A stretch of DNA of 43,372 bases from Deltaproteobacteria bacterium (GCA_020062745.1 JAGUVT010000031.1:1-43372); one strand, 5' to 3'; positions 4,152-24,653 are shown, counted from the first letter of the stretch. Program-made: numbers and translations. The notes: generated by a model not told the origin, from the sequence alone.

Positions 4152-4187
4152 TAAATTAGCAGCTTTATTACCTGGGGGGTAATGCAG

Positions 4188-5114: not shown

Positions 5115-5116
5115 AG

Positions 5117-5152
5117 AAGGTTAAAAATTTCAACCTTAAAAAATTTTTATTT
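5117..5152 (+). terminator. Weak candidate terminator after the first repeat protein
   Basis: A 6-bp stem AAGGTT/AACCTT with a 9-base loop starts three bases after the stop codon and is followed by an A/T-rich run. The stem is short, so this may only attenuate transcription. Confidence 0.35.
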
Positions 5153-5252
5153 TTTGTTGGATTTACAATTATGAGAATATTAGATAAAATTAAATTAGTT
5201 AAGCGCAGGTAAATTTAATGTTAAGGTTTTCCTCCACAAAGGGGGGAGCACA

Positions 5253-6554: not shown

Positions 6555-6888
6555 TGCTTCCCTTCTTTCAAGTCCAGTATGTTTCAAAAACTGCATAAGG
6601 TGCCAATCTTAGACAACCCTTTATGTCCTTGGGTTTTTCCACCGGCGTTACTGGTGGAAAAGGCATTAAGGTATAAGGAAATGCGAAGGGCGTGGAGGAG
6701 TTAGGGTAGCTCCTAAATAAGGTATGTATGGTAGCTTTAACCAAATGCTATATTCGGCGTACCCTTAGTTTTCTATTGCCCGAAAAAGGTACAAAGGTAC
6801 AGCGGAGATATGGGAATGGGTCTAAATGAGGTGGATGAGAATGAGATGGTAAGATGACCTTTCATTAAATTAAAAGGAGTGGTAAGCA
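6555..6888. other. 334-bp gene-free interval with hairpins, no recognised element
   Basis: No convincing reading frame. A perfect 9-bp stem TTTTCCACC/GGTGGAAAA (6635-6643 with 6653-6661) and a 5-bp AGGAG/CTCCT hairpin (6696-6714) are present, followed by AT-poor sequence leading to the ribosome site of the next gene. It was compared by eye with c-di-GMP and c-di-AMP riboswitch consensuses without a match. It may be a leader RNA for the 6889 gene. Confidence 0.4.
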
Positions 6889-7752: not shown

Positions 7753-7764
7753 GATGAATAACGG

Positions 7765-7792
7765 CCCGGCTTCGCATGACGAAGCCGGGTTT
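7765..7792 (+). terminator. Rho-independent terminator after the second CuAO-N-like protein
   Basis: A perfect 10-bp GC-rich stem CCCGGCTTCG/CGAAGCCGGG (7765-7774 with 7780-7789), 5-base loop, followed by TTTGTT. It begins 13 bp after the stop and separates the genes upstream from the DUF6230-like genes. Confidence 0.85.
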
Positions 7793-7847
7793 GTTCCTCA
7801 ATAAAGGGTATGACAATATCTGTAAATAAGCAAAGGAGATGAGATTT

Positions 7848-8426
7848 ATGAAACTCGGTCTGAACATTGATCGAAAACGTTTTGCCCTGGTGGCCGGCTT
7901 GCAAATCGCTGTTTTGGCGGTGATAGTTGCTGTTTTTATGATCAACGGGGTGGCCCTGGCGGCCTTTCCCATTGCCGGTATCGGGGGCTTTGTAATTGAG
8001 GCGGATCAGATTATTGGAGAAGGCTTCACGCTCTACCCCATAGTAGGAGAAACATCGGAGCAGGGTAGTTCTTCGCAGGCGGCTGTGGACCTGGGTAAAG
8101 CCACTATTATCGGCCTGCGTCTTTCCAAGGAGTTGCCGGTGGCAGGCGGAACGGCAAAAGTCGTAATTACCAGTTCAGGCAATGTGGTAGGCAGCGGTGT
8201 GAAGTTAAGAGTAACGGGGATTACTGCCGATAACGCTTCCTTCGAAGGATTGGATGCCGAAGAACACTACGGTGACTACAGCGGAGACGGTAAGGTTGAC
8301 GCTTCTGACAAACTGGATTTAAAAGCTCCAAACGTGGTTTTGGAAAACGCTGCCATAAACGGACATGCCTTGTTTGCCACTGCTATCGTTATCCCGGGCA
8401 TGGGCCTGGATCTGCAATTTCATTAA
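7848..8426 (+). CDS. Exported DUF6230-like protein with calcium-loop motif
   Basis: A protein of 192 residues. ATG 7848 is chosen over ATG 7839 because AAGGAG (7833-7838) abuts the latter and sits 9 bases from the former. One hydrophobic segment (about residues 16-36) serves as leader or anchor and ends near VALAAFP. The mature part starts with GIGGFVIEADQIIGEGF and contains AAVDLGKATIIGL, a pattern I associate with the actinobacterial DUF6230 family. Near residue 145 the motif DYSGDGKVDASD has the spacing of a dockerin/EF-hand calcium loop. It is followed after 14 bp by a DUF6114-like membrane protein and then by a longer paralogue, as DUF6230/DUF6114 genes are paired in Streptomyces. Family assignment is from memory of sequence pattern and synteny; the biochemical role is unknown. 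Confidence 0.65.
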   Translation: MKLGLNIDRKRFALVAGLQIAVLAVIVAVFMINGVALAAFPIAGIGGFVIEADQIIGEGFTLYPIVGETSEQGSSSQAAVDLGKATIIGLRLSKELPVAGGTAKVVITSSGNVVGSGVKLRVTGITADNASFEGLDAEEHYGDYSGDGKVDASDKLDLKAPNVVLENAAINGHALFATAIVIPGMGLDLQFH

Positions 8427-8440
8427 AGGAGGCGTTTTAA

Positions 8441-8815
8441 GTGCTTAATAGTTCCAGACCGGTTGTAGCGGGAATTTTATCCTTGCTTTCCGGTATCTTT
8501 ATCCTTGGCGTGGGGCTGATGTTGATGTCCCTGTCGTTTATGCCCGGCAGTTTAAGCTACCTGGGGCTGCTTGAAGGAATGGTTATGTGCACCCTGGCGT
8601 TGCTGCTGCTGGCCTATCCTCAGTTTTCCGGTATCTTAGGAGCATTTATCATCGTGCTGGCGATTTTCTCCATTATCGGTACTTTGGGTGGGCTTGTGCT
8701 CGGTACCATTTTCGGCATGGCGGGCGGTACCCTGGCGGTGGCCTGGAAGGGGCCGGTTACTGAGGAAAGTATGGTTTTGTCTTCTGATGAAGATCAATCG
8801 GTTTTAGAAGCTTAA
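8441..8815 (+). CDS. DUF6114-like four-helix membrane protein
   Basis: A 124-residue integral membrane protein with four hydrophobic helices (about residues 8-32, 38-58, 60-80 and 82-105) and a short acidic cytoplasmic tail (EESMVLSSDEDQ). GTG 8441 follows AAAGGAGG by 9 bases. The opening RPVVAGILSLLSGIFILGVG, the central GLLEGMVMCTLALLLL and the ending GTIFGMAGGTLAVAWK fit the DUF6114 pattern, in which an Arg-Pro start and a final Gly-Gly-x-Leu-Ala-x-Ala-Trp-Lys/Arg are characteristic. It sits between two DUF6230-like genes with spacing of 14 and 15 bp, so it is probably cotranscribed and may be the membrane partner for their export or anchoring. No enzymatic motif seen. Confidence 0.7.
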   Translation: MLNSSRPVVAGILSLLSGIFILGVGLMLMSLSFMPGSLSYLGLLEGMVMCTLALLLLAYPQFSGILGAFIIVLAIFSIIGTLGGLVLGTIFGMAGGTLAVAWKGPVTEESMVLSSDEDQSVLEA

Positions 8816-8830
8816 GGGAGGTGACCGGTT

Positions 8831-9976
8831 ATTTGCCAGATTAATTTTTGGCGGCGCTGCCGGGTGTGGATTCTTGCCCCGGTGTTTTTGGCAATGGCTC
8901 TGGTTTTTTCTGTCCGTCCGGCCATGGCCCAACAGGTTGCCGGTGCCAGGTATTTCCCTGCTGAGCCGGAGGTAGGCGGTTTTGTAATGGAAGTTAAGGG
9001 GTTTAAAGGAAAAGGACTGGATGTAAGGAAAATTGCTGGCTTGACATCTGAACGAAAGCAGGAACCTCAGGCCTATGTCGGCTTGGATAGGGTTGATATT
9101 GAAGGTCTGGTTTTTTATAAAAACCTTACTTTAGCTGATGGACGGAAAATGAATATTTGTATTAAAACACAGAACCCTACAGATGTGGTAATAGTCCGGA
9201 AAGGAAAGTACGAGCGGGATTTTCAGACTCATATATCCGAGCTTTATGGTAAAAAACTGGTAGCCGGAATTCTGGACCAGGTGCCGGTTACGTTAAATGA
9301 TTACTGGAACACCAAACCGGAAGATGACCTGCTTTTTCTGGCCGGCAGCAAGGTAAGGCCTTCGTTTGAAGGCACCATTGTAAAGATGAATGCTCACTCT
9401 TTGAAGCTTAGTAAGATTAGTATTCCCAATCTTAACCTGACGATAGAATCCGGACACCGGATTGCCGATAGTTTTGGCTCGCCTGATAGCAAAACTAAAA
9501 TGTCTGATAGCCTGGGGTTGTCCGATGGCCTGGATAAAAAAGTTGAAGCGCTCACCGGTATTACCGGCGGTCTGGTTGACTGGTTGGGTAAAACGGTGGT
9601 TGGCTCCGATTTTGGAGAAGTTTTGGGTAACCCTACTGGCGATTTAAGCAAAAAAGCTGGTCCCATTCTTACTCCTGCCGGTGATTTAGTCGGTGATTTA
9701 AGTGGAACAATTGGCAACCTTACAGGTGAAACAGGCGATATTGTCGGCAATGTTGTTAATGATCTGGGCAGTGCTGTGAGTAACCTTGGGGTGTTGCCCG
9801 ATAGTGTGGTAGGAATAGTCTATGACCGTGATTTGCCTGACGGCCAGAGCTCTGATCAAAGCGGAACTGTCGGCAACTTGATCAGTGATGTCGGTGGAAC
9901 TGTTGGGAATGTGGTTGGCAGCTTGGGCAAAACAATTGGCGGCCTTCTTTCGGGCATTGGAAAGAATAATGAGTAA
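8831..9976 (+). CDS. Exported DUF6230-like protein with glycine-zipper tail, probable ATT start
   Basis: About 381 residues if started at ATT 8831. This codon lies 6 bases after a near-perfect GGAGGTGA (8817-8824), and only from here does the leader gain a proper n-region (MCQINFWRRCR) before the hydrophobic core VWILAPVFLAMALVF and cleavage near AMAQQ. The first conventional start, GTG 8864, would remove the charged n-region and leave the ribosome site 39 bases away. The N-terminal domain parallels the 7848 gene: VGGFVMEVKGFKGKGL, AYVGLDRVDIEGLVF. The last ~150 residues are glycine-zipper-like repeats (GDLVGDLSGTIGNLTGETGD and others), as in the 6889 gene. It therefore links the DUF6230-like and glycine-repeat families. 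Function unknown. Confidence 0.72.
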   Translation: MCQINFWRRCRVWILAPVFLAMALVFSVRPAMAQQVAGARYFPAEPEVGGFVMEVKGFKGKGLDVRKIAGLTSERKQEPQAYVGLDRVDIEGLVFYKNLTLADGRKMNICIKTQNPTDVVIVRKGKYERDFQTHISELYGKKLVAGILDQVPVTLNDYWNTKPEDDLLFLAGSKVRPSFEGTIVKMNAHSLKLSKISIPNLNLTIESGHRIADSFGSPDSKTKMSDSLGLSDGLDKKVEALTGITGGLVDWLGKTVVGSDFGEVLGNPTGDLSKKAGPILTPAGDLVGDLSGTIGNLTGETGDIVGNVVNDLGSAVSNLGVLPDSVVGIVYDRDLPDGQSSDQSGTVGNLISDVGGTVGNVVGSLGKTIGGLLSGIGKNNE

Positions 9977-10007: not shown

Positions 10008-11031
10008 ATGGAACTTACCGAACTAAGAAAGAAACTTTTTGATAATGGGACAATATATGCTTTAAAAACAGGGCGTGGGCTGGTAATTGAAACTGCTGAT
10101 ATGTTTTTACCTGCTAAAAGTGAAAAACCGGTTAAAATAAAAGGAAGTAATTTAAAAAAAGGATGCTGGGTAATTGGTATCAGTGTTATGTCCGGCTGTC
10201 CGGTTGGGTGCTGTTTTTGTGATACTGCCGGACGTTACTACGGTAGCCTGACCGCGCAGGAGATGATCGGGCAGGTTGATTTTATATTAAATAAAAAACC
10301 TGATGTTGACCCCAGTTCACTGGATGAATTCAGGATTTCGTTTGCTCAGATGGGGGAACCTTTTTACAATCTTGGTAATATCCATAAGGCCATGATCCGG
10401 TTGCAGGAAAGGTTTCCACATGCTGTTTTTGTTTTGAATACTGTTGGTGTTAAGCTGCCGCAAGCGGTGGATGACCTGCTTCAGTTGGGTAAAGAAGTAT
10501 ATAACATTCAACTTCAGTTCTCTTTACATACTACCAGTGAAGTTTATCGCAATGAGCTTTTAGGACCTGTGAAAAAACTTAGCTTTAAAGAGATCGCATC
10601 TGTTGTTGATGGTTGGCGGGTTTTACCAAATAACTGGAAAAGAAAAGTAGATTTGTATTTTATGATGACAGAAGGCATATTTTTTGACGTTGATTTTGTG
10701 ACCAGGATATTTAATCCAAAGGATGTACAGATAAGACTCAATCTGTCTGATGACCGGCTTGCACGGCAGGGCAGAATGGCTGGTACTACCTGTTAAAATG
10801 CTTGAGGAGGCAACAAGAAAAATGCAAATAACTGCCAAGCTTATGAATTCACTGGAAGACAAGGGCTACGATTACAGTCTTATTGTGGCAATAACAAAAA
10901 AGTACCTGCGTGTAGCAAGCTTCCTGCAGGCAAAAGAATTTGATTGTGATTTTGTTATTGCCGATAAGGGTTGTGCTGACATAACTTGTGGGAAACTGGC
11001 CGCCATTATTACGGAAATTGCTATAATTTAA
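10008..11031 (+). pseudogene. RlmN-like radical SAM protein, frameshifted near the C-terminus
   Basis: ATG 10008 follows AGGAGGAGG. Residues 1-255 resemble the RlmN/Cfr branch of radical SAM enzymes: the cluster motif CPVGCCFC (CX3CX2C), ISFAQMGEPFYN (the GEP motif), and QLQFSLHTT. The frame ends in an unrelated stretch at 10796. In the +1 frame, open from 10735 to 11031, the continuation reads LEEATRKMQITAKLMNSLED and closes with GCADITCGKLAAI, placing a cysteine where RlmN carries its methylated C-terminal Cys (GDDI-AACGQL). The shift is located at about 10765-10796 and the repaired product would be about 340 residues, normal for RlmN. An authentic frameshift or a sequencing error cannot be distinguished. 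The stop overlaps the end of the convergent acyl-CoA synthetase gene by four bases. It may be a paralogue rather than the housekeeping rlmN. Confidence 0.6.
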
Positions 11032-13190
11032 GCAGTATTTTCATTTTCCAAAACCAGCAAGGCATCAGCAGCACAAGCGCCCTCCCCTTCTGCAAACACC
11101 ATCAGCGGGTTTATGTCCAGTTCGGATATTTGCGGAAAATCCGCTGCCAGTCGGGCCACTTTAAGGATAATGTCCACAATGGCCTTTTTGTCGGCAGCGG
11201 GTTTTCCCCGGACTCCTTCCAACAGGCTGCGTCCTTTTATTTCGTTGATCATTTCCCAGGCGTCTGCTTCATCGAAAGGCACCACCCGCAGGGCAATGTC
11301 CTTGAGGGCTTCTACAAAAATGCCGCCTAAGCCAAAGATCACAGTGGAACCGAATACCGGGTCTTTTCCGATGCCGACAATGACCTCCGTGCCTTCTTTG
11401 AGCATTTCCTGCACCAGCACACCGTTCAAACGCGCCTGCGGATTGTAACGCCGGGCGCCGGCCATCACTTCCTGGAAGGCCTGGCGTACCTCCTCGGAGG
11501 TGGTTAAATTTAATTTTATTCCGTCGGCTTCGGTTTTATGGAGTACATCCGGGGAATCGATTTTTACCGCTACCGGGTAACCGATTTGCCCGGCTATCGT
11601 TACAGCTTCATCGGCTGTGGCAGCCCTTTCTTCGCGGGTGACGGGTATCCCGTAAGCGGCCAGTATTTTTTTAGTCTGCCATTCCGAAAGCCTGTCCCCG
11701 GGTTCTAGGGAAGACAATATTTTTTCCACCTCATGCTTTGCCGGTGAAGGGGAAGCGGTTTTAACAGGCTTGAAAGAACCGGCCTTGCTGACGTAGCCGG
11801 CAACATGATTTACGGCCCGTGCGGCTGAATCCACACCCATTATGGTTGGAACCCGGTGCTTGTGCAGGTAATGAATATGTTTAAAAACATATTCATTTGA
11901 ACCGAGAATTACCGCTATGACCGGTTTTACGGTAGAATTGGCGATTTGAATTAATTGTTTCTGGATCGGCCCTTCCAATTCTTTTGTAGCCCAGTAGGAG
12001 ACAAGCACTACATCCACGCCGGGGTCAGCCACGACAATTTCAGCGCATTTTTGGAAGAGATTGGGTTGGACTATATCCATGCCGGTGAAATCGATGGGGT
12101 TGCTGATATTGGCAAAAGATGGCAATAACCGGGCCAACCCGGCGCGGGTTTCTTCGCTCAATGAAGCTATTTCCAAACCGGCTTCCACACATTTATCCAC
12201 CATTACCACGCCGTGCCCGCCTGAGGAGGCAAAGATGGCCGCTCTTTTCCCCTGCGGCAAATTTCCGGCTTCGAGAATAGCCATTACGGCAATCATTTCC
12301 GCGATGCTTTCAGCCCGGATAATTCCTTTTTGCCGGAAGAAAGAGGTATATACCAGGTCGGAACCGGCCAGGGCGCCGGTGTGGGACACGGCGGCCCGGG
12401 CGGATGCCTGATGCCGGCCGGTTTTGTATATCACCACCGGTTTTTTTGCTTCCAGCGCCATGTCTGCAGCCAGGGCCAGCTTTTTGCCGTCTCTGGCTCC
12501 TTCCATGTAGCCGCCGATAACTTTGGTACAGCGGTCGCCGGTCAGGTAGGCCAGAAAATCGGCGAAGTCGGCGTCGGCTTCGTTCCCTGTGCTGATGTAA
12601 TGAGAAAAGCTGATTCCCTGGTTTATGGCTGTGATGAAGGTACTGCATCCAAAACCGCCGCTTTGGGTGATAAAACCGGCGGATTTCGGCAGGTCCGGGG
12701 GGTTGCCGGGTAAAATACTGCCGAAAGTAAATATTGACTTCATGTTGTTGTGGAGGTTCATTATTCCCATGCAGTTTGGGCCGCATACTCTCGTGTCGGT
12801 TTGAGCGACGAGTTCTTTTATTTCTTTTTGCAGATTGACTCCTTCTTCTCCTGCTTCGGCAAAACCGGAAGTAAATATGATTACCCCTTTTACTCCCTTG
12901 GCGATACATTCCTTGAGGATGTTCATTACCTGCGGGGCCGTCACCGCAATAACGGCCATTTCAACTTTATCAGGAATTGCTGTCAGGTTTGGGTAACAGG
13001 GCAGGCCGCGTATTTCTTTTTGTTTTGGATTGACGGGATAAATCTTGCCTTTGAAGCCCTCTTCCTTCAGGTAGGCCAGGACAACTCCGCCTGGTTTGGT
13101 GATTTCTTTTGAGGCGCCGACAACGGCTACGGAACAGGGATCAAAAAGGTACTTTAACCCTTCGACTCTTTTTTTAAAATCAGTATTCAA
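11028..13190 (-). CDS. ADP-forming acyl-CoA synthetase (acetate--CoA ligase), fused alpha-beta
   Basis: A 720-residue NDP-forming acyl-CoA synthetase that interconverts acyl-CoA + ADP + Pi with acid + CoA + ATP, giving substrate-level phosphorylation in anaerobes. Domains in order: CoA-binding Rossmann (residues ~10-140, VAVVGASKE), succinyl-CoA-ligase-like domain (~165-300) with the phosphorylated histidine at His270 in AVSHTGALAGSD, a second ligase-like domain (~310-460), and a C-terminal ATP-grasp domain (~495-715: YPVAVKIDSPDVLHKT, GIGKDPVFGS, ELDINPLMV). TTG 13190 follows GGGGGAGGA; the ATG nearer that site stops after six codons in another frame. Substrate cannot be fixed; acetate, propionate or aryl acids are possible. 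No partner gene is adjacent, so it is likely monocistronic. Confidence 0.93.
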   Translation of the reverse strand: MNTDFKKRVEGLKYLFDPCSVAVVGASKEITKPGGVVLAYLKEEGFKGKIYPVNPKQKEIRGLPCYPNLTAIPDKVEMAVIAVTAPQVMNILKECIAKGVKGVIIFTSGFAEAGEEGVNLQKEIKELVAQTDTRVCGPNCMGIMNLHNNMKSIFTFGSILPGNPPDLPKSAGFITQSGGFGCSTFITAINQGISFSHYISTGNEADADFADFLAYLTGDRCTKVIGGYMEGARDGKKLALAADMALEAKKPVVIYKTGRHQASARAAVSHTGALAGSDLVYTSFFRQKGIIRAESIAEMIAVMAILEAGNLPQGKRAAIFASSGGHGVVMVDKCVEAGLEIASLSEETRAGLARLLPSFANISNPIDFTGMDIVQPNLFQKCAEIVVADPGVDVVLVSYWATKELEGPIQKQLIQIANSTVKPVIAVILGSNEYVFKHIHYLHKHRVPTIMGVDSAARAVNHVAGYVSKAGSFKPVKTASPSPAKHEVEKILSSLEPGDRLSEWQTKKILAAYGIPVTREERAATADEAVTIAGQIGYPVAVKIDSPDVLHKTEADGIKLNLTTSEEVRQAFQEVMAGARRYNPQARLNGVLVQEMLKEGTEVIVGIGKDPVFGSTVIFGLGGIFVEALKDIALRVVPFDEADAWEMINEIKGRSLLEGVRGKPAADKKAIVDIILKVARLAADFPQISELDINPLMVFAEGEGACAADALLVLENENTA

Positions 13191-14971
<1,781 letters not shown>

Positions 14972-15039
14972 GATGTTGTCGAACAACGAAAACCTTCTAA
15001 TGACTTGATAAGGGTACTTTTATACTGGATTTGGATTGG

Positions 15040-15066
15040 ACCCGGCAAAAAATTGCCGGGTTTCTC
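15040..15066 (+). terminator. Terminator downstream of guaB
   Basis: 8-bp stem ACCCGGCA/TGCCGGGT (15040-15047 with 15054-15061), 6-base A/T loop, then TTCTCCTT. Confidence 0.75.
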
Positions 15067-15205
15067 CTTATATGAAGGGCGTGCCTGGTGTAGAAGATTG
15101 TAGGAAATTTTTATCATATTAGTTAATTCTATGAAAGGAATATGCCCTGGTGAAGATGAATTAATATAAAACACAAAAAAACAAGCGAGGAAGGTGGTTG
15201 TCCCA

Positions 15206-16609
15206 GTGGATGGGAAGCTATATTCGTTAACTGATGTATTAAAGAAGACTCTTTTCTTCTTTGAATCTTTGTCGGTAGCTGAATTGACTCCTTATGTCCA
15301 CCGCATGATGCTTAAAGACTACACCCGGGAGCAGGTGGAAGAAAAGGTTAATCTTTGTCTCGATCAACATCCGTGCTTTTGCACCAGTGGTGACCAGTTG
15401 TGGCATTTAAACCTGGAGGGCGTGCGGGAAAATGACCAGTTTTATGCTCTTCTCCTCAAACGGGGGCAACCTCTAAATTTACGGGAATTATTAAAGAACG
15501 GTAAAGATAAGAAAAAGAAATTTAAAGATTTAATTACGGAAGAAGCCGGCCTTATTTCGGATGGACGTTTTATCCAGTTGGATAACGGTTATTGGGGCCT
15601 GACTGAGTGGGAGGTTGAAACCGGCCATTATTCTTCGAAACATCTTGTAATTAAAGCATTAAAAACCCACCCGGGCGGGCTTTCTTTGCAGCAGCTTTTT
15701 AACGTAGTGAATGCCTGGCGTACAACAACGATGCAGACAATAGAAGAGATTTTAAATAAATTTCCATACTTCGAGCAAATGGGTGACGGTATTTGGACCT
15801 ATAACCCGGTAGCACAGGTGGTATACGAGGAGCTTTTGAAGAGGTTTCTTACTATAATTAATAAGCAAAAATTGCGCCGGCATAGTGAACGGCTGCTTTG
15901 GAACAACAAAATTGCGTTTTTGCGAAGGCAATTGCAAGAAGTCATCGGCGCTCACAGGGAAGCTGCTGCGGCCCTGGCTGAGAGGATAGAATTGACCGGC
16001 CAGCATGAACAGTTAAAGACTCAAATGGCCGAGAAGGACCTTTTACTTTCTTTGCGTAAGAAAGAAATTATGCGTTACCGGGAGCACCTGGTCAGGCTGG
16101 AGAACAAGGCGAACAGTATTTTGCATCAGTGCCGGCTTTGGGTAAAACGGGCCAGGGAGGAAGAAGAGGTAAATGCCAGGTTGCGGGAGATACTTAACCA
16201 GAACCGGGACGATATGGAAGGCATTTTTGTGAAGATGCAGCAGTATAAAGAAAGGGACAGGGAAAACAAGGCCAGGCTGGCCGAAATAAAAGAGCGCCAC
16301 AGCATCAGGGTAGCTGAACTGCAGACTGAGATTGTTGAGTTAAAACAGAGAATGGAAAGAGAAATAGAAAAAGCTTCTTTGGTGGAACGACGCTTACGGG
16401 AGGAAATAAATGCGCTCAGCAATGACCTTAAAAAATCTTTAAGTGCTGCAGAAGAGTATCACCGGTCCCTTCGTTTTGCCCAGCAGGAACTGGCTGCCGT
16501 TCGGGAAGATTATCAGCGGTTGTCCCGCCGGGTAAATCACCCGCTGGTCAGGTTGGCCGTCAGGGTTTGTTCTTTTTTTAACCGTGACGGCAGACATCAG
16601 TTGCTTTAA
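15206..16609 (+). CDS. Coiled-coil protein with N-terminal winged-helix-like repeats, unknown function
   Basis: A cytoplasmic protein of about 467 residues that I do not recognise. GTG 15206 is preferred (AGGAAGGTGG about 10 bases upstream); GTG 15194 lies inside that site. Residues 1-200 contain three similar small segments, each ending in a Trp-centred strand (QLWHLNLEG, NGYWGLTEWE, DGIWTYNPV) and preceded by a helix, which resembles HARE/RpoE-type winged-helix repeats. Residues ~215-445 are an almost continuous coiled coil rich in Glu, Arg, Lys and Gln (for example KERDRENKARLAEIKERHSI). The C-terminal 25 residues are basic. There is no signal peptide or membrane helix. It lies between guaB and the glycyl radical enzyme and is 227 bp upstream of the latter. 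A DNA-binding or structural role is plausible but not shown. Confidence 0.75.
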   Translation: MDGKLYSLTDVLKKTLFFFESLSVAELTPYVHRMMLKDYTREQVEEKVNLCLDQHPCFCTSGDQLWHLNLEGVRENDQFYALLLKRGQPLNLRELLKNGKDKKKKFKDLITEEAGLISDGRFIQLDNGYWGLTEWEVETGHYSSKHLVIKALKTHPGGLSLQQLFNVVNAWRTTTMQTIEEILNKFPYFEQMGDGIWTYNPVAQVVYEELLKRFLTIINKQKLRRHSERLLWNNKIAFLRRQLQEVIGAHREAAAALAERIELTGQHEQLKTQMAEKDLLLSLRKKEIMRYREHLVRLENKANSILHQCRLWVKRAREEEEVNARLREILNQNRDDMEGIFVKMQQYKERDRENKARLAEIKERHSIRVAELQTEIVELKQRMEREIEKASLVERRLREEINALSNDLKKSLSAAEEYHRSLRFAQQELAAVREDYQRLSRRVNHPLVRLAVRVCSFFNRDGRHQLL

Positions 16610-16836
16610 AATTTATTAAAATATTATGAATGATCACGGAGTCCAGGGTACAGAGAGAAATATACTGTATACTTTGAATTTTTTAAATGTTATGTATTGA
16701 AAAAAACCGGTCTTTATTAGATCAGAGTGGTGTTTCTTGCCTGTCCCAAATTCTACCGGTCGTTTGTGGGGGGTGGTAGGAAAGCAGAGGTTTTAGGGGC
16801 CTGCATATGCTGAAAAAAATATTTTAGGAGGTAAAA

Positions 16837-19329
16837 ATGTCTGTGGATGTAAAAGAGAAAGAAGTTCAAGAAGCATTAGAAAAAAAGGAATACTGGTGGT
16901 GGGCGGAAAAAGCCAGATCCCAGAGGATGGATTATTTAAGAAAGGCGGTATGGTCCAAAGCAACAAAGGGATCCAGTTGGCTGCCGGGTGTAGAAGTATG
17001 TACGGAAGGGTTACGGTGGTTTACAAAGGGATTTAAAGAAGCCGACCCGGCCGAAGAGTTTATTATCACCAGAGCCAATGCGTTTGCTTTGTTACTGGAT
17101 AATATACCTATTTTTATTGTTGATCAATCGCGGATTGTAGGTTATCCCGGTTCTGCCCCGCACCGTATTCATTGGATTCCTACCCAGTCTTATACGGTGA
17201 ATGACGATATTTTTAACGATCGAACGGGGATTCTGCGTGAAGAGGACAGGCTATGGATAGGTGAAGCACTGGATTGGTGGCAGCGTAGAACTTACCAGGC
17301 AAAGTGTGAAAAGTACTTAAGCCGCAGGGAGAGAATGCTTTCAGCCCTGTCTATTTTTGTTGCCGCCGGCCGGCACTTGACTGCCTTTGATTATGTGACA
17401 CCTCAGCCGGACTGGATGTTTGGAAAAGGGCTTGAGGGCATAATTGAGACTATTGATGGAAAATTAAGCGAGGCAAACCGGAAACTTCATGAGGATGCTC
17501 CCGATGCAACAGAACAGGTTGCTTATCTCCAAAAAATTGATACCTGGACGGCCATGAAGATTTGTTTGGAAGCGGTAATAAGGTATGCCAGGAGATACAG
17601 CAGGCTGGCGAAGATAATTGCTGAGAACTTTGAAACCGACCCGACAAGGAAACAGGAACTGCTCAGGATTTCTGAAACCTGCTACAAGGTACCCGCCCAG
17701 CCTCCCGAGCATTTCTGGGAAGCTATCCAGTTTGAGCACTTTGTACAGATAGCGTACCGGTATGAATGGCATAATGCCGCCTGGTCTTCGCGTTATGACT
17801 ACTGGTTGTGGCCTTTTTACAAAAAGGATGTAATAGATGAAAAGAGCATGACCAGGGAGGATGTGGTGGAGTACTGCATGGAGTGGATGATCCGGGCTTA
17901 CGAGGTCGGTAAAACCTGGCTCAGATTCGGGCGTGAGGCTATGCAGGGGACTCCCGGACCTTACGTGTGGACCATAGGGGGAGTCGACGAGGAAGGCGGG
18001 GATGCCTGCAACGACCTTACCGATTGTTTCCTGGAGGCGGCCAGGCTTACCAGGGTGTGTGACCCCACCTTCGGTTTTCGCTATCACCCCGGCGCCCGGC
18101 TTGAAACCTTGCGTCAGGTGTTTGAGTGCATCAGGCATGGTTTGGGCTATCCGTCCATAAGAAATGACAGCGTTCTCATACCCAATATAATCCAGTGGTT
18201 CGGCCACCCTCTTAACGAGGCGCGACGCTGGGTCCACCAGGCCTGTATGGCGCCTGCCCCGGACACCATGATGGGAGCGCCGCCGCTGCGCTACCCTTCG
18301 GCATCGCTTTTCGGCGGAGCAAAAGCAGTTGAGTTTGTCCTCTTCAATGGGTGGGATCCGCTGATTAAAATGCAGTTGGGCGTTAAGAGCGGGGAAGCCG
18401 CCGGGTTTAAGACTTTCGACGAGTTTTATAATGCCTGGCTGGAACAGATGAAGGACGGTTTTAACGTAGCCTGCCGGATAGAACATATCAACCGGCATGT
18501 GGAAGCTCTCCACTATCCAAAACCGATGACTTCGGCCCTTTATCAGCGTTGTGTGGAGTCGGGTGAAAACAGCGCTCTCAGTAAGGAGAGGAGTAGCCTG
18601 TGGTTTACCCTGTTTGCTTTCGGCGATACGGGTGACTCCTTGGCGGCAGTTAAGAAACTGGTTTTTGACGAAAAGAAATATACTGTAACCCAGTTGATCG
18701 AGGCGCTGAAAGTTAATTGGGACGGTTATGAAGAGATGCGGATGGATTTTGTGAAGGCGCCGAAGTGGGGCAATGATGATGATTACGTCGACCAGATCTG
18801 GGTGCGTATCTATAATGACTTGCGCAAACTTTCCTGGTCGGCGCGAGACTGGTGCGGTTCTCCCTGGGGTACTCTGCCGGAGAGCGTGGCCACTCATATT
18901 GTGCAGTCGACAAAGATTGGGGCGCTTCCCAACGGAAGGCGCTGGGGAGATCCTTTGTATGACGGCGGTTGTTCACCGGGCGCCGGCCAGGATAAGAAGG
19001 GCCCTACGGCCGTGCTCCGGTCGGTGGGTAAAATAGACCATGTGGGTACAGTGAGGGGGTCTTTGCTTAACCAGCGTTTGTCGCCTACTCAACTGGCCGG
19101 GGAGAAGGGCTTCCAATTGTGGCTGGACTATATTAAGACCTGGCATGATCTGGGAATAAACCATGTCCAATTTAATATGGTTGACAACGAAACCCTTTAT
19201 GCGGCACAGAGAGAGCCTGAGAAATTCAGCGAGTTGATCGTGAGAATTGCCGGTTACAGCGCTCATTTTGTCGAGATGAATAAGAAAACCCAGGATTCTA
19301 TAATTGCCCGGCAGGTTCAGGCGCTTTAA
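16837..19329 (+). CDS. Glycyl radical enzyme, X-succinate synthase (benzyl/alkylsuccinate synthase)-like catalytic subunit
   Basis: An 830-residue PFL-superfamily enzyme. The C-terminal glycyl radical motif is RIAGYSAHF with Gly806. The catalytic thiyl residue is predicted at Cys470 (WVHQACMAPAP). The Cys-Gly spacing of 336 equals that of benzylsuccinate synthase BssA (Cys493, Gly829), and an Arg at +15 from the Cys (Arg485) matches BssA Arg508, which holds a fumarate carboxylate; these BssA numbers are from memory. The segment after the Cys (SLFGGAKAVEFVLFNGWD, LGVKSGEAAGFKTFDEF) also follows the BssA pattern, and a small Cys-rich subunit lies 24 bp downstream. X-succinate synthases add hydrocarbons to fumarate. 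Against certainty: the local Cys motif differs from the usual CMSPG, only one small subunit is present, and no activase gene adjoins. Substrate unknown. ATG 16837 follows TTAGGAGG. Confidence 0.82.
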   Translation: MSVDVKEKEVQEALEKKEYWWWAEKARSQRMDYLRKAVWSKATKGSSWLPGVEVCTEGLRWFTKGFKEADPAEEFIITRANAFALLLDNIPIFIVDQSRIVGYPGSAPHRIHWIPTQSYTVNDDIFNDRTGILREEDRLWIGEALDWWQRRTYQAKCEKYLSRRERMLSALSIFVAAGRHLTAFDYVTPQPDWMFGKGLEGIIETIDGKLSEANRKLHEDAPDATEQVAYLQKIDTWTAMKICLEAVIRYARRYSRLAKIIAENFETDPTRKQELLRISETCYKVPAQPPEHFWEAIQFEHFVQIAYRYEWHNAAWSSRYDYWLWPFYKKDVIDEKSMTREDVVEYCMEWMIRAYEVGKTWLRFGREAMQGTPGPYVWTIGGVDEEGGDACNDLTDCFLEAARLTRVCDPTFGFRYHPGARLETLRQVFECIRHGLGYPSIRNDSVLIPNIIQWFGHPLNEARRWVHQACMAPAPDTMMGAPPLRYPSASLFGGAKAVEFVLFNGWDPLIKMQLGVKSGEAAGFKTFDEFYNAWLEQMKDGFNVACRIEHINRHVEALHYPKPMTSALYQRCVESGENSALSKERSSLWFTLFAFGDTGDSLAAVKKLVFDEKKYTVTQLIEALKVNWDGYEEMRMDFVKAPKWGNDDDYVDQIWVRIYNDLRKLSWSARDWCGSPWGTLPESVATHIVQSTKIGALPNGRRWGDPLYDGGCSPGAGQDKKGPTAVLRSVGKIDHVGTVRGSLLNQRLSPTQLAGEKGFQLWLDYIKTWHDLGINHVQFNMVDNETLYAAQREPEKFSELIVRIAGYSAHFVEMNKKTQDSIIARQVQAL

Positions 19330-19353
19330 AAGATGAAGAAGGGAGAATAACTG

Positions 19354-19587
19354 ATGCCGAGATGTGGAGACTGCAAGAACATAATAATTCAATCGAGTAA
19401 TTCGGCGGCAAGAGAAGGTTACTGCAATGCGCAGTTGGACGAGTGCGGATTGGGCAAGGAAGTCACGATTTATCTGGATGCCGGTAAGTGCCCCTACTTT
19501 GTAGCGCAGGACCGGATCAGGACGGAAGTTTCGGAGTTTATGTGGGACCAGTCGTTACGCGTCGCCAGAGGCTTTGAAGAGAAATAA
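19354..19587 (+). CDS. Small cysteine-rich subunit of the glycyl radical enzyme (BssB/BssC-like)
   Basis: A 77-residue protein with Cys at 4, 7, 24, 31 and 46; the pattern CX2CX16C with a later CPYF resembles the HiPIP-type 4Fe-4S small subunits of benzylsuccinate synthase and 4-hydroxyphenylacetate decarboxylase. Those subunits bind the catalytic chain and modulate its activation. The gene starts at ATG 19354 after AGAAGGGAG, 24 bp behind the large subunit, so the two are almost certainly cotranscribed. The C-terminus (VSEFMWDQSLRVARGFEEK) is helical and could contact the large subunit. Family is inferred from cysteine pattern, size and position; there is only one such subunit here, whereas Bss has two. 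Confidence 0.75.
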   Translation: MPRCGDCKNIIIQSSNSAAREGYCNAQLDECGLGKEVTIYLDAGKCPYFVAQDRIRTEVSEFMWDQSLRVARGFEEK

Positions 19588-19620
19588 ATTTGTTTTGAGC
19601 AGATAAAACGGCGGCTTTAG

Positions 19621-19667
19621 AACCAGTGAGTTTTATCACTAACTGGTTAAAAGGACGCTTTTTTTTG
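19621..19667 (+). terminator. Probable terminator of the glycyl radical enzyme operon
   Basis: Stem AACCAGT/ACTGGTT with an inner AGTGA/TCACT pairing (19621-19648), then an eight-T run at about 19659-19666. The T run is about ten bases from the stem, so efficiency is uncertain. Confidence 0.5.
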
Positions 19668-19741
19668 TTTTTTAATTATTTTTTAAAGTCAAGGATGCAG
19701 GTTCATTAACACCAGCTTGATTAGATGGTAAACTTTCGCAT

Positions 19742-19837
19742 ATGGAGGGTGATACCTTTAAAATCTGTATGATCACAATAGAGGAGCAGCTTAAAAATAA
19801 AGGCGGGGTAGCAGTCGTCTTCAAAGGTAATGCTTGA
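19742..19837 (+). other. 31-codon reading frame in the interval before the ASKHA gene
   Basis: The 345-bp gap 19588-19932 holds the terminator and this short frame (MEGDTFKICMITIEEQLKNK and eleven more residues). It looks protein-like, but ATG 19742 has no ribosome site before it; an inner ATG at 19769 follows GGAGGG too distantly. It could be a gene fragment. I recognise no family. Confidence 0.2.
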
Positions 19838-19932
19838 TTCTCAACAAGAGGCTGTGTTATTATAAGTTTTAAGAAAGTTTTTTCTGCTATAAATTTTAAT
19901 TTTGCTGAAAGCTGATTGCTGACGGCTTTAAT

Positions 19933-21570
19933 ATGATTTTTGCCGGGAACAAAGTTCCTGTTTTTTTTGTTGAGGTGGCTGGTTTGAACGATAAATGGAA
20001 AGTGATCCTGTCCGACCGTACCGCCGGCGAGATTCAGCTTGATCCTTTGACCAAGAAGATTTGCCTGTGTCTTGAACCGCCCAGTCTCAAGGACAACCGG
20101 GCTGATGTGGACCGGTTAAGGGAAGCGCTGGGGCATTTGGTTGGTCCGGTGGACGTGCCGCTGGTCCTGATGCGTAAAGTTCCCGGTGTTTGCCGGGAAA
20201 GAGATTGGGCAGTAACGGCTACTGTAGGGCCGGCCGGTGCCGGGACGAAAATGATTGACCTGGAGGCAGGGGATACTACAGCCCGGCATTTCGGACTGGC
20301 GGTTGATGTGGGCACCACTACCGTAGTGGTCTACCTGGTTGATCTGGGCAGCGGCGAAATTTTAGGCACGTCTGCGGACTATAATGCCCAGGCACCGTTG
20401 GGCGAGGATATTCTCACCCGTATTTACCTCTCCGGCAGCACCGGCGGCCTGGCCGGAATGCAGGAAGCGGTGGTAAAAACAATAAACGGCTTGCTGGCTG
20501 GACTGACGGAACGGTGCGGGGTGGCGCCCGATGAGATAACTGCGGCGGTAGTTAGCGGCAACAGTACTATGATCCACCTTTTGCTTGGTCTCGACCCGGG
20601 CTTGATCTGCCGCGAGCCCTACATACCGGTGGTAAATCTACCCGGCCTGCTGCAGGCCGGAGAGGTCGGCCTGCAGGTCAACCCGCAGGCTGTGCTGTAT
20701 TGTCTGCCGGGCGTGGGCAGTTATATCGGCGGAGATGTTGTTGCCGGCGTGCTGGTCAGCGGGATGCACCGCCGGAAAGAAATAGCCATGCTGGTAGACA
20801 TAGGCACCAACGGTGAGATTGTGGTCGGCAATGAGGAATGGCTGGCGGCCTGCGCCGGGGCGGCCGGACCGGCCCTGGAAGGCGGGGTGGCCCGGGCCGG
20901 GATGCGGGCGGAGCCGGGGGCCATCGAGCACGTGCGAATTGACCCAAAAACCGGCAAGATTTGCTATAACACCATCGGTGGTAATCTTAAGCCGGCCGGT
21001 ATCTGCGGCTCCGGCCTTGTCGACTGTCTGGCCGAGTTTTTGTTGAACGGGATTATCGACCGTTCCGGGCACTTCCAGCACGGATCTGGCTCTTTTACTT
21101 TGGTGCCGGCGGCGGAGTCGGCTACCGGTGCGGAGATTGCCATCACCCAGACGGATATAAATAATTTTATGCGCACCAAAGGAGCCGTTAATGCTGCCGT
21201 GGAAACCCTGCTTGAAGGAGTGGGGCTGGATCTTCAGGCTATTGAGCGCTTTTATGCAGCCGGCGCTTTTGGTCATTATCTTTGCCTGGAATCGGCTGTT
21301 ACCATCGGCCTCTACCCTGATCTCCCCCGGGAACGGATGATCAGGCTGGGGAACAGCGCCGGGGAGGGAGCCAGGCAGGTGCTTTTGTCCAACCGGAAGC
21401 GTTTAGAGGCAGAAGAAATAGCCCGACGGGTTACCTACTTCGAGCTAAATGCCAGCCAGCAGTTTATGAACCGTTTTATCGGCAGCAAGTTCCTGCCCCA
21501 TACCAATCTCGATTATTTCCCCACAGTTAAGGCCAGATTGCGGGAAAGAGGCCTTCTACCCGATGATTAG
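19933..21570 (+). CDS. RACo-like ASKHA-domain protein (DUF4445) lacking the N-terminal ferredoxin domain
   Basis: A 545-residue member of the reductive-activator-of-corrinoid-protein family, whose ASKHA ATPase domain drives reduction of corrinoid or related metal centres. The sequence begins in the linker that normally follows the 2Fe-2S domain (LDPLTKKICLCLEPPSLKDN at about 35-54), then the ASKHA signatures: VDVGTTTVVVYLVDL (~120), VVSGNSTMIHLLLG (~210), MLVDIGTNGEIVVGN (~290), GICGSGLVDCLAEFLL (~360), and a GAFGHYL region (~445). The usual 2Fe-2S domain (four Cys, about 90 residues) is absent and no trace was seen upstream. ATG 19933 has no convincing ribosome site, which supports 5' truncation, though a domain-lacking variant is possible. 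It is separated from the glycyl radical operon by a terminator. Confidence 0.8.
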   Translation: MIFAGNKVPVFFVEVAGLNDKWKVILSDRTAGEIQLDPLTKKICLCLEPPSLKDNRADVDRLREALGHLVGPVDVPLVLMRKVPGVCRERDWAVTATVGPAGAGTKMIDLEAGDTTARHFGLAVDVGTTTVVVYLVDLGSGEILGTSADYNAQAPLGEDILTRIYLSGSTGGLAGMQEAVVKTINGLLAGLTERCGVAPDEITAAVVSGNSTMIHLLLGLDPGLICREPYIPVVNLPGLLQAGEVGLQVNPQAVLYCLPGVGSYIGGDVVAGVLVSGMHRRKEIAMLVDIGTNGEIVVGNEEWLAACAGAAGPALEGGVARAGMRAEPGAIEHVRIDPKTGKICYNTIGGNLKPAGICGSGLVDCLAEFLLNGIIDRSGHFQHGSGSFTLVPAAESATGAEIAITQTDINNFMRTKGAVNAAVETLLEGVGLDLQAIERFYAAGAFGHYLCLESAVTIGLYPDLPRERMIRLGNSAGEGARQVLLSNRKRLEAEEIARRVTYFELNASQQFMNRFIGSKFLPHTNLDYFPTVKARLRERGLLPDD

Positions 21571-21668
21571 AGGATCTGCCCGTTTTGTTTTTGAAAAAGA
21601 GAAATTCCGGAAAAAGAGGAATCCCGGCCTGTTTGCTAGAATTTTCATTGGAAAAGGGGGCGGTACGG

Positions 21669-21890
21669 ATGAAAATTGCCTGTCCGCAAAACTTTTCCTG
21701 CGCAAAATACGAGATCTTGCTTACGGCCGGCCCGTCCGGGCTTCTTTTGCCGCCCTATAAAGGTTCTACGCTGCGGGGCGGCGAGCTGATTCATGCCGGC
21801 AAGGGCGTCGTCTTCGGCCTCGGTCAATACGAAATCAGGGAAACCGGCCGGCCGGTACCCCCGGAGGGATCTTCATGGGATCAAAGCTGA
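21669..21890 (+). pseudogene. Cas6 endoribonuclease remnant: N-terminus joined to C-terminus
   Basis: A 73-codon frame from ATG 21669 (AAAAGGGGGCGG upstream). Residues 1-37 end in LPPYKGSTLRG, the N-terminal signature of Cas6/RAMP crRNA-processing proteins. They run directly into GELIHAGKGVVFGLGQYEI (residues 38-56), which is the C-terminal glycine-rich signature of the same family. A normal Cas6 has roughly 200 residues between these, so the middle is deleted in frame, with the junction at about 21774-21785. The catalytic centre is gone. The frame overlaps the start of the WYL regulator gene by 16 bases; WYL proteins commonly regulate CRISPR loci. No repeat-spacer array or other cas gene is visible here, so this is likely the relic of a lost CRISPR system. 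Confidence 0.65.
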
Positions 21891-22876
21891 GTTATCATGA
21901 CTTGAACCGGCCCAGAATTCACCGCATCTTTTATATTCATCAGCAGGTGAAGGCCGGCCGGCACCCCAACGGGCCGACTCTCGCTGCCGATCTTGAGGTG
22001 AGCATCCGCACCATCCAGCGGGATATTGCTTACCTGAGGGATTTGATGCAAGCCCCCCTTGAGTACGACCGGCATAAAAACGGCTTTTATTATACATGGC
22101 CTTTTGAAGTGCTTCCGCTGACCCTCACCGAAGGGGAGCAGGTAGCCCTCTTTTTGGGTCAAAAACTCCTTCGCCAGTGTGCCGGCACGCCGCTGGAACA
22201 ACCCATCCGCAGCGCCTTCGAAAAAATCTGCTTCTGCCTGCCGGAGGGAGTGAGCGTCGATTTAAGCCTTTTAGAACAGATATTTTCTTTTGACGTGCAG
22301 CCCTTGCGGGGTGATGAACAGAGCCTTGCCCAGACCTACCGCCTGCTGGCCCAGGCCGTAGAAAAAAAGAATGCAGTGGAAATGGAGTACTATACCGCCA
22401 GCCGTGACCACCAGACCAGACGGAAAGTGAATCCCTACCACCTCCGTTATTACGGGGGAGCCTGGTACCTGATTGCTTACTGCCGCCTGCGCCGGGAAGT
22501 GCGCATTTTTGCCCTGGACCGCATCCGGGAGGCTGTCCTGCTGGAGGAGACCTTTGAAATAGAGACCGGATTTAACCTGGAATTCTACCTCGGCAGCAGC
22601 CTGGGCATAGAAAGAGGGGGGCCGGTGGAAGAGGTGATCGTCCTTTTTGATCCCTACCAGGCCCGCTGGATCCAGGAGCGGAAGTGGCATGAATCCCAGG
22701 AAACGGAGTTCAAGCCCGACGGATCGCTGCTCTTGCGCCTGAAAGTAAGCGGCTTGAGCGAGGTCAAGCGCTGGCTTTTAAGTTTCGGCGCCCATGCCCG
22801 GGTGCTGGCGCCGGCTTCTTTGCGGGAAGAAATCCGCCGGGAAGCCGGGAAAATGATGGCGGTTTACGAGAAATAG
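21875..22876 (+). CDS. WYL-domain transcriptional regulator (HTH-WYL)
   Basis: A 333-residue regulator. The N-terminal winged helix (residues ~10-65; LAADLEVSIRTIQRDIAYLR) is of the DeoR/HTH_11 type. The central WYL domain (~140-225) carries KVNPYHLRYYGGAWYLIAYC followed by RIFALDRIR, the nucleic-acid ligand-binding surface. A C-terminal WCX extension ends the protein. ATG 21875 lies 7-8 bases after GGAGGG and overlaps the Cas6 remnant. WYL proteins control CRISPR, DNA-damage and phage-defence genes in response to single-stranded DNA or oligonucleotides. Its partner here has decayed, so its present target is unknown. It may be cotranscribed with the adenine deaminase gene 22 bp downstream. 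Confidence 0.9.
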   Translation: MGSKLSYHDLNRPRIHRIFYIHQQVKAGRHPNGPTLAADLEVSIRTIQRDIAYLRDLMQAPLEYDRHKNGFYYTWPFEVLPLTLTEGEQVALFLGQKLLRQCAGTPLEQPIRSAFEKICFCLPEGVSVDLSLLEQIFSFDVQPLRGDEQSLAQTYRLLAQAVEKKNAVEMEYYTASRDHQTRRKVNPYHLRYYGGAWYLIAYCRLRREVRIFALDRIREAVLLEETFEIETGFNLEFYLGSSLGIERGGPVEEVIVLFDPYQARWIQERKWHESQETEFKPDGSLLLRLKVSGLSEVKRWLLSFGAHARVLAPASLREEIRREAGKMMAVYEK

Positions 22877-22898
22877 TTTACGTTTATGGGAGGAAGTT

Positions 22899-24653
22899 AT
22901 GGATTGGAAAACTATTCGCAGCCTGCAAAAAGTAGCCCTGGGGAAAGAACTCCCGGACTTGATCATAAGAGGTGCTTCTGCCGTGAACGTCTACACGGGA
23001 GAAATCATTCCCGACTGCCGGGTAAGTGTTAAAGGCAGGTACATTGCCTGTGCCGGCGCCGAAGAAGTAGAGGCCGGACCCAGTACCGAAGTTATCGACG
23101 CGGCCGGCAAGTTCCTTGTTCCCGGTTTTATCGATCCGCATACCCACCAGGACGTATGGGTGCAGTTCCATGAATTTTTAAGCTATGCGGCCGCCGGCGG
23201 CACCACTACCTTTGTCTCGGAAGTGATGGGTCTGGCCAATGTTGCCGGGTACGACGGCGTTAAATGTTTCCTGGAAGCAATTAAAGACCAGCCGGTCAAA
23301 ACATTCACCCTCGTTCCCATGATGGTACCGGGAAACCCCGGCCTGCAAAAGGGACATACCCTCACCCTGGAACAGAAAGAAGCGCTCCTGCAACTGCCGC
23401 AAACGCTCGGTCTCGGCGAAACGTACTGGACCCGGGCCATCGAAGGAGAGGAAGAATTTTTCAAGATGTATGCGAGCGTCATAAACAGCAGAAAAACGCT
23501 GGAAGGACACAGCGCCGGGGCCAGAAACCGCAACCTGGCCGCTTACTTTGCCGCCGGCATTACTTCCTGCCACGAGCCGATCTCCGTACAGGAAGTTAAA
23601 GAGAGGTTGCGCCTGGGCGCCTATGTTACCGTAAGAGAAGGCTCCATTCGCCGGGAACTGGAAGCAATTGCCCCGATTGCTAAGGAAAACATCAGCCTGC
23701 GCCGGCTTGGGCTCTGTACCGACGGAGTTTTCCCCGACGACCTGGTGGATTGCGGCGCAATGGAATTTGTTGTGCAGAAGGCTATCGACCTCGGGTTTGA
23801 TCCGGTGCAGGCTATTCAAATGGCCACCCTCAACAACGCGCAACGCTTCAATCTGGACAACCGGCTGGGCGGCATTGCCCCCGGAAAATACGCCGATATG
23901 GTGATCATTCCGTCTTTAAAAGAAATCCGGGCCGAATGCGTAATCAGCAACGGGAAGGTGATTGCCTGGGACGGAAAACTGGTCGTGCCGCCTCGCTCCT
24001 GCGAGTACCCGCCGGAAGTTAAAAAGGCCTTCCGGATTACGCCCCGGTTTGAGCAGGAAGACTTCTCCCTGCCGGCCGGAAAGACCGGTGGAACCGCCAC
24101 GGTTAGAATCATTAAAATGCTCAGCGACATGATCACGGCCGAAGAGACGGCGGAACTGCCCGTAACCGGCGGGGCGATACCGGCGCGGCCGGAAAAAGAT
24201 ATTTTAAAAGTAGCCGCCGTCAGTGCGCTGGACGGCCGGGCCATGACGGTCGCCCTGGTAAAAGTCTTCGGCCTGCGCCAGGGCGCCTGCGCCGTGAGCT
24301 ACACGTGGGATGCGCCGCACCTCGTCATAGTGGGAACCAACGACCGGGACATGGCCGTCCTGGCAAACCACATAGCCGGTTCAGGCGGCGGATTCGGGGT
24401 CTGTATCGACGGCGAAATCGTGGCCGATCTGCCCCTGCCCGTGGGAGGGTGTATTTCCGACCGGCCTTTGCCCGAAGTAGCAGCAAAGTTAAAGGAGATA
24501 AACCGGCTGCTCATCAATCTCGGCTACTCCCACTGCCGGCCCACCCTGGGGCTGCAGGTTTTTACCTTTGTGGGTGTGCCGGCCCTGCGCATCAGCAGCG
24601 AAGGACTTATTTCCACCAAAGACAAAAAGTTTGTTGATGTTGTAATCTCTTAA
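22899..24653 (+). CDS. ade: Adenine deaminase
   Basis: Deaminates adenine to hypoxanthine for purine salvage; a metal-dependent amidohydrolase. At 584 residues it has the usual AdeC length. Metal-ligand motifs: PGFIDPHTHQD (~70), EGHSAGA (~200), a HEP motif (~230) and CTDGVFPDDL (~275). The composite beta-sandwich domain surrounds the barrel (GGIAPGKYADMVII), and the C-terminal adenine deaminase domain (~400-584) contains GGGFGVCIDGEIVADLPLPV. ATG 22899 follows GGGAGG. Together with guaB it contributes to purine nucleotide balance, but the genes are unlinked transcriptionally. High-confidence family assignment. Confidence 0.95.
   Translation: MDWKTIRSLQKVALGKELPDLIIRGASAVNVYTGEIIPDCRVSVKGRYIACAGAEEVEAGPSTEVIDAAGKFLVPGFIDPHTHQDVWVQFHEFLSYAAAGGTTTFVSEVMGLANVAGYDGVKCFLEAIKDQPVKTFTLVPMMVPGNPGLQKGHTLTLEQKEALLQLPQTLGLGETYWTRAIEGEEEFFKMYASVINSRKTLEGHSAGARNRNLAAYFAAGITSCHEPISVQEVKERLRLGAYVTVREGSIRRELEAIAPIAKENISLRRLGLCTDGVFPDDLVDCGAMEFVVQKAIDLGFDPVQAIQMATLNNAQRFNLDNRLGGIAPGKYADMVIIPSLKEIRAECVISNGKVIAWDGKLVVPPRSCEYPPEVKKAFRITPRFEQEDFSLPAGKTGGTATVRIIKMLSDMITAEETAELPVTGGAIPARPEKDILKVAAVSALDGRAMTVALVKVFGLRQGACAVSYTWDAPHLVIVGTNDRDMAVLANHIAGSGGGFGVCIDGEIVADLPLPVGGCISDRPLPEVAAKLKEINRLLINLGYSHCRPTLGLQVFTFVGVPALRISSEGLISTKDKKFVDVVIS

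Follow-up and report, generated by a model that had tools for sequence, protein, structure and literature searches.

A two-gene locus in a deltaproteobacterial draft genome and its very probable place in an uncharacterised branch of the alkylsuccinate synthases

Does a divergent glycyl radical enzyme gene that stands beside a single small Cys-rich subunit gene, with no activase near it, encode a minimal two-subunit enzyme or one part of a larger system, and on what does the enzyme act? The question is raised by a locus within a 43,372-nucleotide contig of a deltaproteobacterial genome (the whole stretch analysed, here called the window). The substrate of an alkylsuccinate synthase (Ass) is not yet predictable from sequence, and the one solved Ass structure, that of MasDCBE from Azoarcus HxN1 (9o8u, PMC12358834), leaves the role of the beta subunit and the entry of the alkane open.

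The cassette and the class of its alpha subunit

The landmarks of the locus are as follows.

16826..16831, + strand: ribosome-binding site AGGAGG of the alpha gene, read from the sequence, 5 bases ahead of the ATG
16837..19329, + strand: predicted alkylsuccinate synthase alpha subunit, glycyl radical enzyme, 830 residues (Pfam, PDB sequence search, trees, model with Foldseek match to 9o8u at TM 0.95)
17365..17367, + strand: Ala177 codon, at the position of the MasD gating Trp185 (alignment to MasD; role of Trp185 from PMC12358834)
18244..18246, + strand: codon of the catalytic Cys470, within ACMAPAP (alignment)
18289..18291, + strand: codon of the fumarate-binding Arg485, equivalent to MasD Arg492 and BSS Arg508 (invariant in 31 sequences, mapped)
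18880..18882, + strand: Glu682 codon, equivalent to MasD Glu690 and Gln in BSS (alignment; role from PMC12358834)
19252..19254, + strand: codon of the radical-bearing Gly806, within RIAGYSA (alignment)
19354..19587, + strand: predicted beta subunit of the MasB family, short 77-residue form without the N-terminal helix region (family profile against 9o8u_B, 1.8e-27; profile from long forms only, 0.0012)
19597..19670, + strand: intrinsic-terminator-like hairpin with T run, closing the alpha-beta unit (fold -24.1 kcal/mol, z -3.35)

The alpha gene is real and intact, with an uninterrupted reading frame of 830 residues (16837-19329, + strand) whose product scored well over the Pfam cut-offs for both PFL-like (406 bits) and Gly_radical (92 bits). 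Alignment to TutD/BssA bore out the geometry that the first-pass annotation had likened to benzylsuccinate synthase: Cys470 and Gly806 lie 336 residues apart and Arg485 stands at Cys+15, the same spacing as in TutD/BssA (Cys493, Gly829, Arg508), and MasD likewise has Arg at Cys+15 (Cys477, Arg492). The ACMAPAP motif is also present as described. The CMSPG loop against which it had been set is usual only for BssA-type enzymes, whereas Ass/Mas enzymes mostly have CMSPCP or CMSPNP, and a CMAP loop occurs also in three enzymes of the Bss/Nms clade.

Twenty-five bases past the alpha stop starts a 77-residue Cys-rich ORF (19354-19587), the one such subunit at the locus, just as had been described; no second small subunit was found beside the alpha gene when specifically looked for, and Rfam gave no match across 14900-23000 of the window. 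A single-sequence PDB search with the 77-residue protein returned nothing notable. The profile of its family matched 9o8u_B (MasB) at 1.8e-27, and a profile made from long beta members only, run against 7632 ORFs, recovered the window protein at 0.0012, behind none but members of the family. Judged by these profiles, the neighbour is a beta subunit of the MasB family.

In a PDB sequence search, MasD (9o8u) was the closest solved protein to the alpha subunit, scoring 839.6 bits vs 527.7 bits for TutD/BssA. The window enzyme fell inside the Ass/Mas clade with support of 100/100 in a 34-row tree (mixture model) and with an SH-aLRT of 100 in a 105-row tree; this clade also holds MasD and the AssA proteins of Desulfatibacillum, Smithella and Desulfosarcina, with Bss/Nms outside. 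It was thus not placed in a clade of other function, and the curated NCBIfam cut-offs for HPAD, indoleacetate decarboxylase, CutC, HypD, sulfopropanediol dehydratase and PFL were not approached by any score (CutC 362 of 1050, HPAD 254 of 1150 and indoleacetate decarboxylase 289 of 1100 bits). Plasmid records held only ordinary glycyl radical enzymes at ~31% identity to the window enzyme. An AlphaFold model of the alpha subunit (pLDDT 84, pTM 0.88) superposed on 9o8u_A in Foldseek with a TM of 0.95 and an rmsd of 1.8. The earlier assignment to fumarate-adding X-succinate synthases therefore stands, together with the fumarate-binding Arg, yet the type is Ass/Mas rather than BssA. We consider it very likely that the window enzyme is an alkylsuccinate synthase (Ass/Mas) of the alkane type from an uncharacterised branch, and the locus reads with the same strength as a two-gene cassette that encodes its alpha and beta subunits.

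Within Ass, the subclade of the window enzyme comprised 13 of the 34 rows (100/99) or 15 of the 105, and was sister to all remaining Ass in trees built without the AssA sequences of BuS5, Propane60GuB and 'Ca. Alkanivorans'. Nested in it is a clade of six (100/99) that shares the motifs CM[AS]PAP and RYP. The other five sequences come from four MAGs named Syntrophaceae, Deltaproteobacteria, Dehalococcoidia and Desulfobacteraceae (two sequences); these are NCBI names, which give for example 'Myxococcota' for Deltaproteobacteria MAGs, and were not relied on as labels of kinship. The clade was not found in other genomes of the window organism's own order among those searched, and the nearest relatives in that order, 53-61% identical, were placed elsewhere in the tree. 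The spread of the six-member clade across phyla suggests gene transfer.

Partner genes elsewhere in the genome and the flanking genes

The window is contig C84 of a 2.69-Mb draft genome, 99.65% complete, in 148 contigs with breaks inside Ass genes. A genome-wide search for an activase with extra 4Fe-4S clusters, which the first-pass annotation had suggested, returned two tandem genes on contig C104 (2037-3954) with inserted ferredoxin-type (Fer4) clusters, the only two over cut-off. The claim that there is no activase thus holds for the 43-kb window and fails for the genome. Within the window, the radical-SAM gene at 10008-10796 is RlmN-like and not of activase type, and that at 38-997 reads as an aminomutase-like protein.

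The remaining subunits are likewise encoded in trans, on C104 and C90, with only beta adjacent to alpha. The gamma family (54 residues) has a profile that matched 9o8u_C (MasC) at 1e-18 and TutF at 1e-8, and its genes lie at C104 4224-4385 and C90 9937-10098, with none near the window alpha gene. The rubredoxin-like delta family, with a profile match to 9o8u_D (MasE) at 3e-17, is encoded at C104 426-665 and C90 11476-11706. In relatives, these parts stand together: one locus (L033) combines an orthologue with delta-like genes, two activases, and AAA and VWA genes, another (L029) has beta, orthologue and gamma in a row, and a third (L030) has gamma directly upstream of the orthologue. Thus, "one small subunit, no activase" is true of the locus and not of the system, which corrects the view of such orphan loci as minimal two-subunit enzymes without activase. 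With gamma and delta genes standing apart from alpha, the make-up of the complex is itself a matter of inference. On C104, a radical SAM-PDZ-DUF512 protein (L019:7887-9752) is encoded a few genes past the stretch of the Ass cluster that holds the two activases, an AAA ATPase and a VWA protein.

Besides that of the window (C84), Ass-type alpha genes of this genome occur on C107 and C145, on C90 as two long genes and a cut one, and on C23 as a long gene and a cut one; C34, C72 and C104 hold pieces. Five paralogues besides the window gene are near full length; the long ones are 51-77% identical to one another and belong to different subclades, and the window alpha is 55-63% identical to the other intact paralogues. 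Among the incomplete genes, one on C72 (L017:1-309, 2789-4711) is a second gene of the window type, 79% identical over 103 N-terminal residues and cut by the contig start, and sits downstream of an apparent carbon monoxide dehydrogenase gene. Two N-terminal halves that are 91% identical (L014:7727-8771 and L011:1-1048) are both cut by contig ends, so near-identical Ass copies probably broke the assembly. At the end of C34 (L015:14275-15273), an Ass-type gene has shrunk by internal deletions, with residues 162-389, 514-621 and 804-830 consecutive in one open frame. The closest orthologue, at 69% identity (L029; G113:C123 812-3271, from Syntrophaceae CG2_30_49_12), contains one in-frame TAA, and this copy is accordingly broken or misassembled.

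It had also been remarked that no CoA-transferase or dehydrogenase gene flanks the enzyme. No CoA-transferase or fumarate-adduct pathway gene indeed adjoins the window alpha gene; the pathway genes lie on contigs C90, C104 and C107, which encode two CoA-transferases (one succinyl-CoA:acetate-type, one CaiB-type), methylmalonyl-CoA mutase subunits, enoyl-CoA hydratases and an MmdA-like carboxyltransferase. SCADC1_2_3 (L040), which, together with BRH_c4a, belongs to the same order as judged by identical matches, has almost the same genes beside its AssA. With dsrA also present (585 bits), the genome fits a sulfate-reducing alkane degrader.

The coiled-coil gene upstream (15194-16609) and the RACo-like ASKHA gene downstream (19933-21570) had been thought possible parts of the system, a suggestion that their distribution contradicts. 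Of the 113 genomes of the order, 104 have the coiled-coil gene but just 16 have any match to the window enzyme at E <= 1e-100, and the gene was rejected as an enzyme partner on these grounds. The ASKHA gene was rejected as an activator: it occurs in 58 of the 113 genomes, a terminator separates it from the cassette here, and in at least 13 genomes (G010, G014, G015, G016, G017, G018, G022, G023, G025, G033, G072, G111 and G112) it is directly adjacent to the coiled-coil gene, with gaps of 117-368 bases and no enzyme between. Furthermore, G+C is 0.55-0.58 on the ASKHA side vs about 0.47 in the cassette. Neither gene belongs to the enzyme system, and most likely the alpha-beta cassette was inserted between two old neighbours. 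The pairing of the coiled-coil and RACo-like genes is conserved across the order; some genomes have nothing between the two, others a gap of 2.3-5.5 kb, possibly marking an insertion hotspot. The RACo-like protein itself is without the N-terminal 2Fe-2S domain.

The active-site pocket and the rival readings

In MasD, fumarate is contacted by Arg492, Glu690, Tyr194 and Thr598, beside Cys477 and Phe600 (PMC12358834). By alignment, the window enzyme has the same residues at all of these positions (Arg485, Glu682, Tyr186, Thr591, Cys470 and Phe593, respectively), as against Arg, Gln, Ser, Asn, Cys and Ile in BSS. Arg485, the fumarate-binding residue, was invariant across 31 aligned sequences, and the BSS-specific fumarate residues Ser199, Asn615, Gln707 and Gly512-Gly513 correspond to Tyr, Thr, Glu and Ala-Ser in the window enzyme. 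On these alignments, the fumarate half of the pocket is of the Mas type.

The hydrocarbon half, read from the same alignments, differs from that of MasD. There, Trp185 shuts the substrate channel (PMC12358834). The window enzyme has Ala177 at this position and the rest of the six-member clade has Pro, Thr or Gly; indeed, the Trp is missing from the whole subclade of 13 or 15 rows, with Ala, Gly, Pro or Thr in the window clade and its sister groups. The Trp185 gate is known from one solved structure and is not known to define the Ass/Mas family. Together with the replacement of the Cys-loop Ser by Ala472, the missing Trp makes the predicted pocket unlike that of any tested enzyme.

Some of these features would also suit a benzylsuccinate-synthase-type enzyme activating toluene or another methyl-aromatic: the Cys-Gly spacing and the Arg position are those of BSS, BSS too has Ala at the place of Trp185, and genomes of the same order carry true Bss enzymes that are 66-74% identical to TutD. 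However, the window enzyme lies outside the Bss/Nms clade with full support, its Tyr186, Thr591, Phe593 and Glu682 form the Mas set where BSS has Ser, Asn, Ile and Gln, and its beta subunit is MasB-type and not BssB-type. Moreover, Phe593 stands at the place of MasD Phe600, which blocks the toluene site (PMC12358834). The trees and pocket residues led us to reject this assignment, which we regard as most improbable.

The altered Cys loop (CMAPAP) and altered hydrocarbon side, in a clade whose members are known from sequence alone, could instead point to a new reaction on the X-succinate synthase scaffold, other than hydrocarbon addition to fumarate; yet all MasD fumarate contacts are conserved, orthologues are accompanied by Ass-type activases and subunits, and CMAP loops are found in the Bss/Nms clade as well, which makes such a reaction very unlikely. 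A redundant or decaying Ass paralogue without a function of its own would be in keeping with the reduced gene on C34, the other copies cut at contig ends and the in-frame stop of the L029 orthologue, but the window gene spans the full length, keeps every catalytic residue and comes with a strong ribosome-binding site, a beta gene of its own and a terminator. Its identity of only 55-63% to the intact paralogues further argues for an old, maintained type and not a fresh copy, and we give decay very little credence. An alkane-type alkylsuccinate synthase is thus the reading that we carry forward, and its substrate is most likely a saturated hydrocarbon.

The Trp185 position, the beta subunit and a proposed working

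We matched each Ass alpha subunit with the beta gene of its own locus, which yielded 46 pairs. In all 39 pairs with Trp at position 185, at least 27 residues precede the CxxC motif of the beta subunit, whereas in all 7 pairs without this Trp there are 11 or fewer; mixed pairs were absent (0 of 46). These pairs are not 46 independent events, as the split falls mostly on one branch of the tree. Both classes occur in the window genome: the genes on C107 and C145 combine Trp with a long beta, and the window gene and the C90 gene combine Ala or Gly with a short one. A second lineage without Trp (MAGs CSMAG_2994 and CSMAG_2959) has Phe, Ala, Ile, Met or Val at position 185, and here beta was out of reach in 6 of 6 testable cases vs 7 of 47 for Trp types, which points in the same direction. 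Each MAG of this lineage holds many Ass copies, and these have no genes for small subunits close by (L045, L047, L049, L051, L053, L055, L058, L059, L061 and L069). No earlier report of the correlation was found in the open-access literature.

The N-terminal helix of MasB rests on the helix-loop-beta(-1) element that bears Trp185, and this element shifts when MasB is absent (PMC12358834). Together with the co-occurrence of Trp and long beta, this suggests that gate residue and beta helix form a single gating module, retained or lost as a whole. The co-occurrence in 46 pairs, with both classes inside one dsrA-bearing genome, amounts to a natural experiment, and swapping would put the gating role proposed for MasB to the test.

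The window enzyme resembles MasDCBE in clade, fold (TM 0.95), Cys/Gly/Arg, the Glu-Tyr-Thr fumarate set, Phe593 and the MasB-family beta, and its genome has homologues of MasC (gamma) and MasE (delta). It differs in that the alpha subunits are 47% identical, with Ala for Trp185 and CMAPAP for CMSPNP, MasB has 120 residues and the N-terminal helix whereas the window beta has 77 and lacks it, and alpha and beta stand apart from the gamma, delta and activase genes. AssA of Desulfatibacillum alkenivorans (L070) and of Smithella SCADC (L098) share the Ass clade, the fumarate residues and a MasB-family beta, but are 47-49% identical and have the Trp gate, a long beta, and gamma and beta adjoining alpha. 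TutD/BssA (4pkc, 5bwe) shares the X-succinate synthase class, the Cys-Gly distance of 336, Arg at Cys+15 and the fold (TM 0.92), and differs in clade, in fumarate and hydrocarbon residues and in overall sequence (36% identity). SCADC1_2_3 (L040) is in the same Ass subclade, likewise without Trp185 and with a short beta; it belongs to a sister group at about 54% identity, with the Cys loop CIVPCP and Gln at the place of Glu690.

Stagars et al. 2016 (PMC4703814) describe MasD cluster III as BuS5, Propane60GuB and a Peptococcaceae single cell. From this description we infer that SCADC1_2_3 stands for cluster III, BuS5 itself lying outside our trees. Strain BuS5 uses propane and butane (PMC9576796), and its grouping with SCADC1_2_3 hints at short alkanes for the sister group, which does not amount to proof for the clade of the window enzyme. 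Branched or cyclic alkanes could also fit into the space left by the missing Trp.

In the working that we propose, one of the two C104 activases would generate the radical on Gly806, from which it would pass to Cys470, and the thiyl radical would abstract a hydrogen from the alkane. Fumarate would be held by the oxyanion hole of the Cys loop, Arg485, Glu682, Tyr186 and Thr591 while the alkyl radical adds to it. The alkylsuccinate would then undergo CoA transfer, a rearrangement of the methylmalonyl-CoA-mutase type, decarboxylation and beta-oxidation by enzymes encoded on other contigs. Several Ass paralogues of the genome would share gamma, delta and the activases, supplied in trans. In the window subfamily the channel would be without Trp closure on the helix-loop-beta(-1) element and beta without its N-terminal helix, so that substrate gating would have to differ from that of MasD. 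Our broader proposal is a tentative one, possible rather than probable: that Ass enzymes fall into two gating classes, with Trp185 and a helix-bearing beta or with neither, and that the cross-phylum window clade belongs to the second, admits its substrate differently, acts not on linear C6-C8 alkanes but on other hydrocarbons (gaseous, branched or cyclic alkanes) and has its gamma, delta and activase shared among paralogues.

Elsewhere in the window, 4182-9976 encodes a run of five or six + strand proteins that are hydrophobic at the N-terminus and of no clear family. An ADP-forming acyl-CoA synthetase-like gene (11028-13190, - strand) is found on the opposite strand, 3.6 kb upstream of the alpha gene, and its product might conceivably use a pathway acid as substrate.
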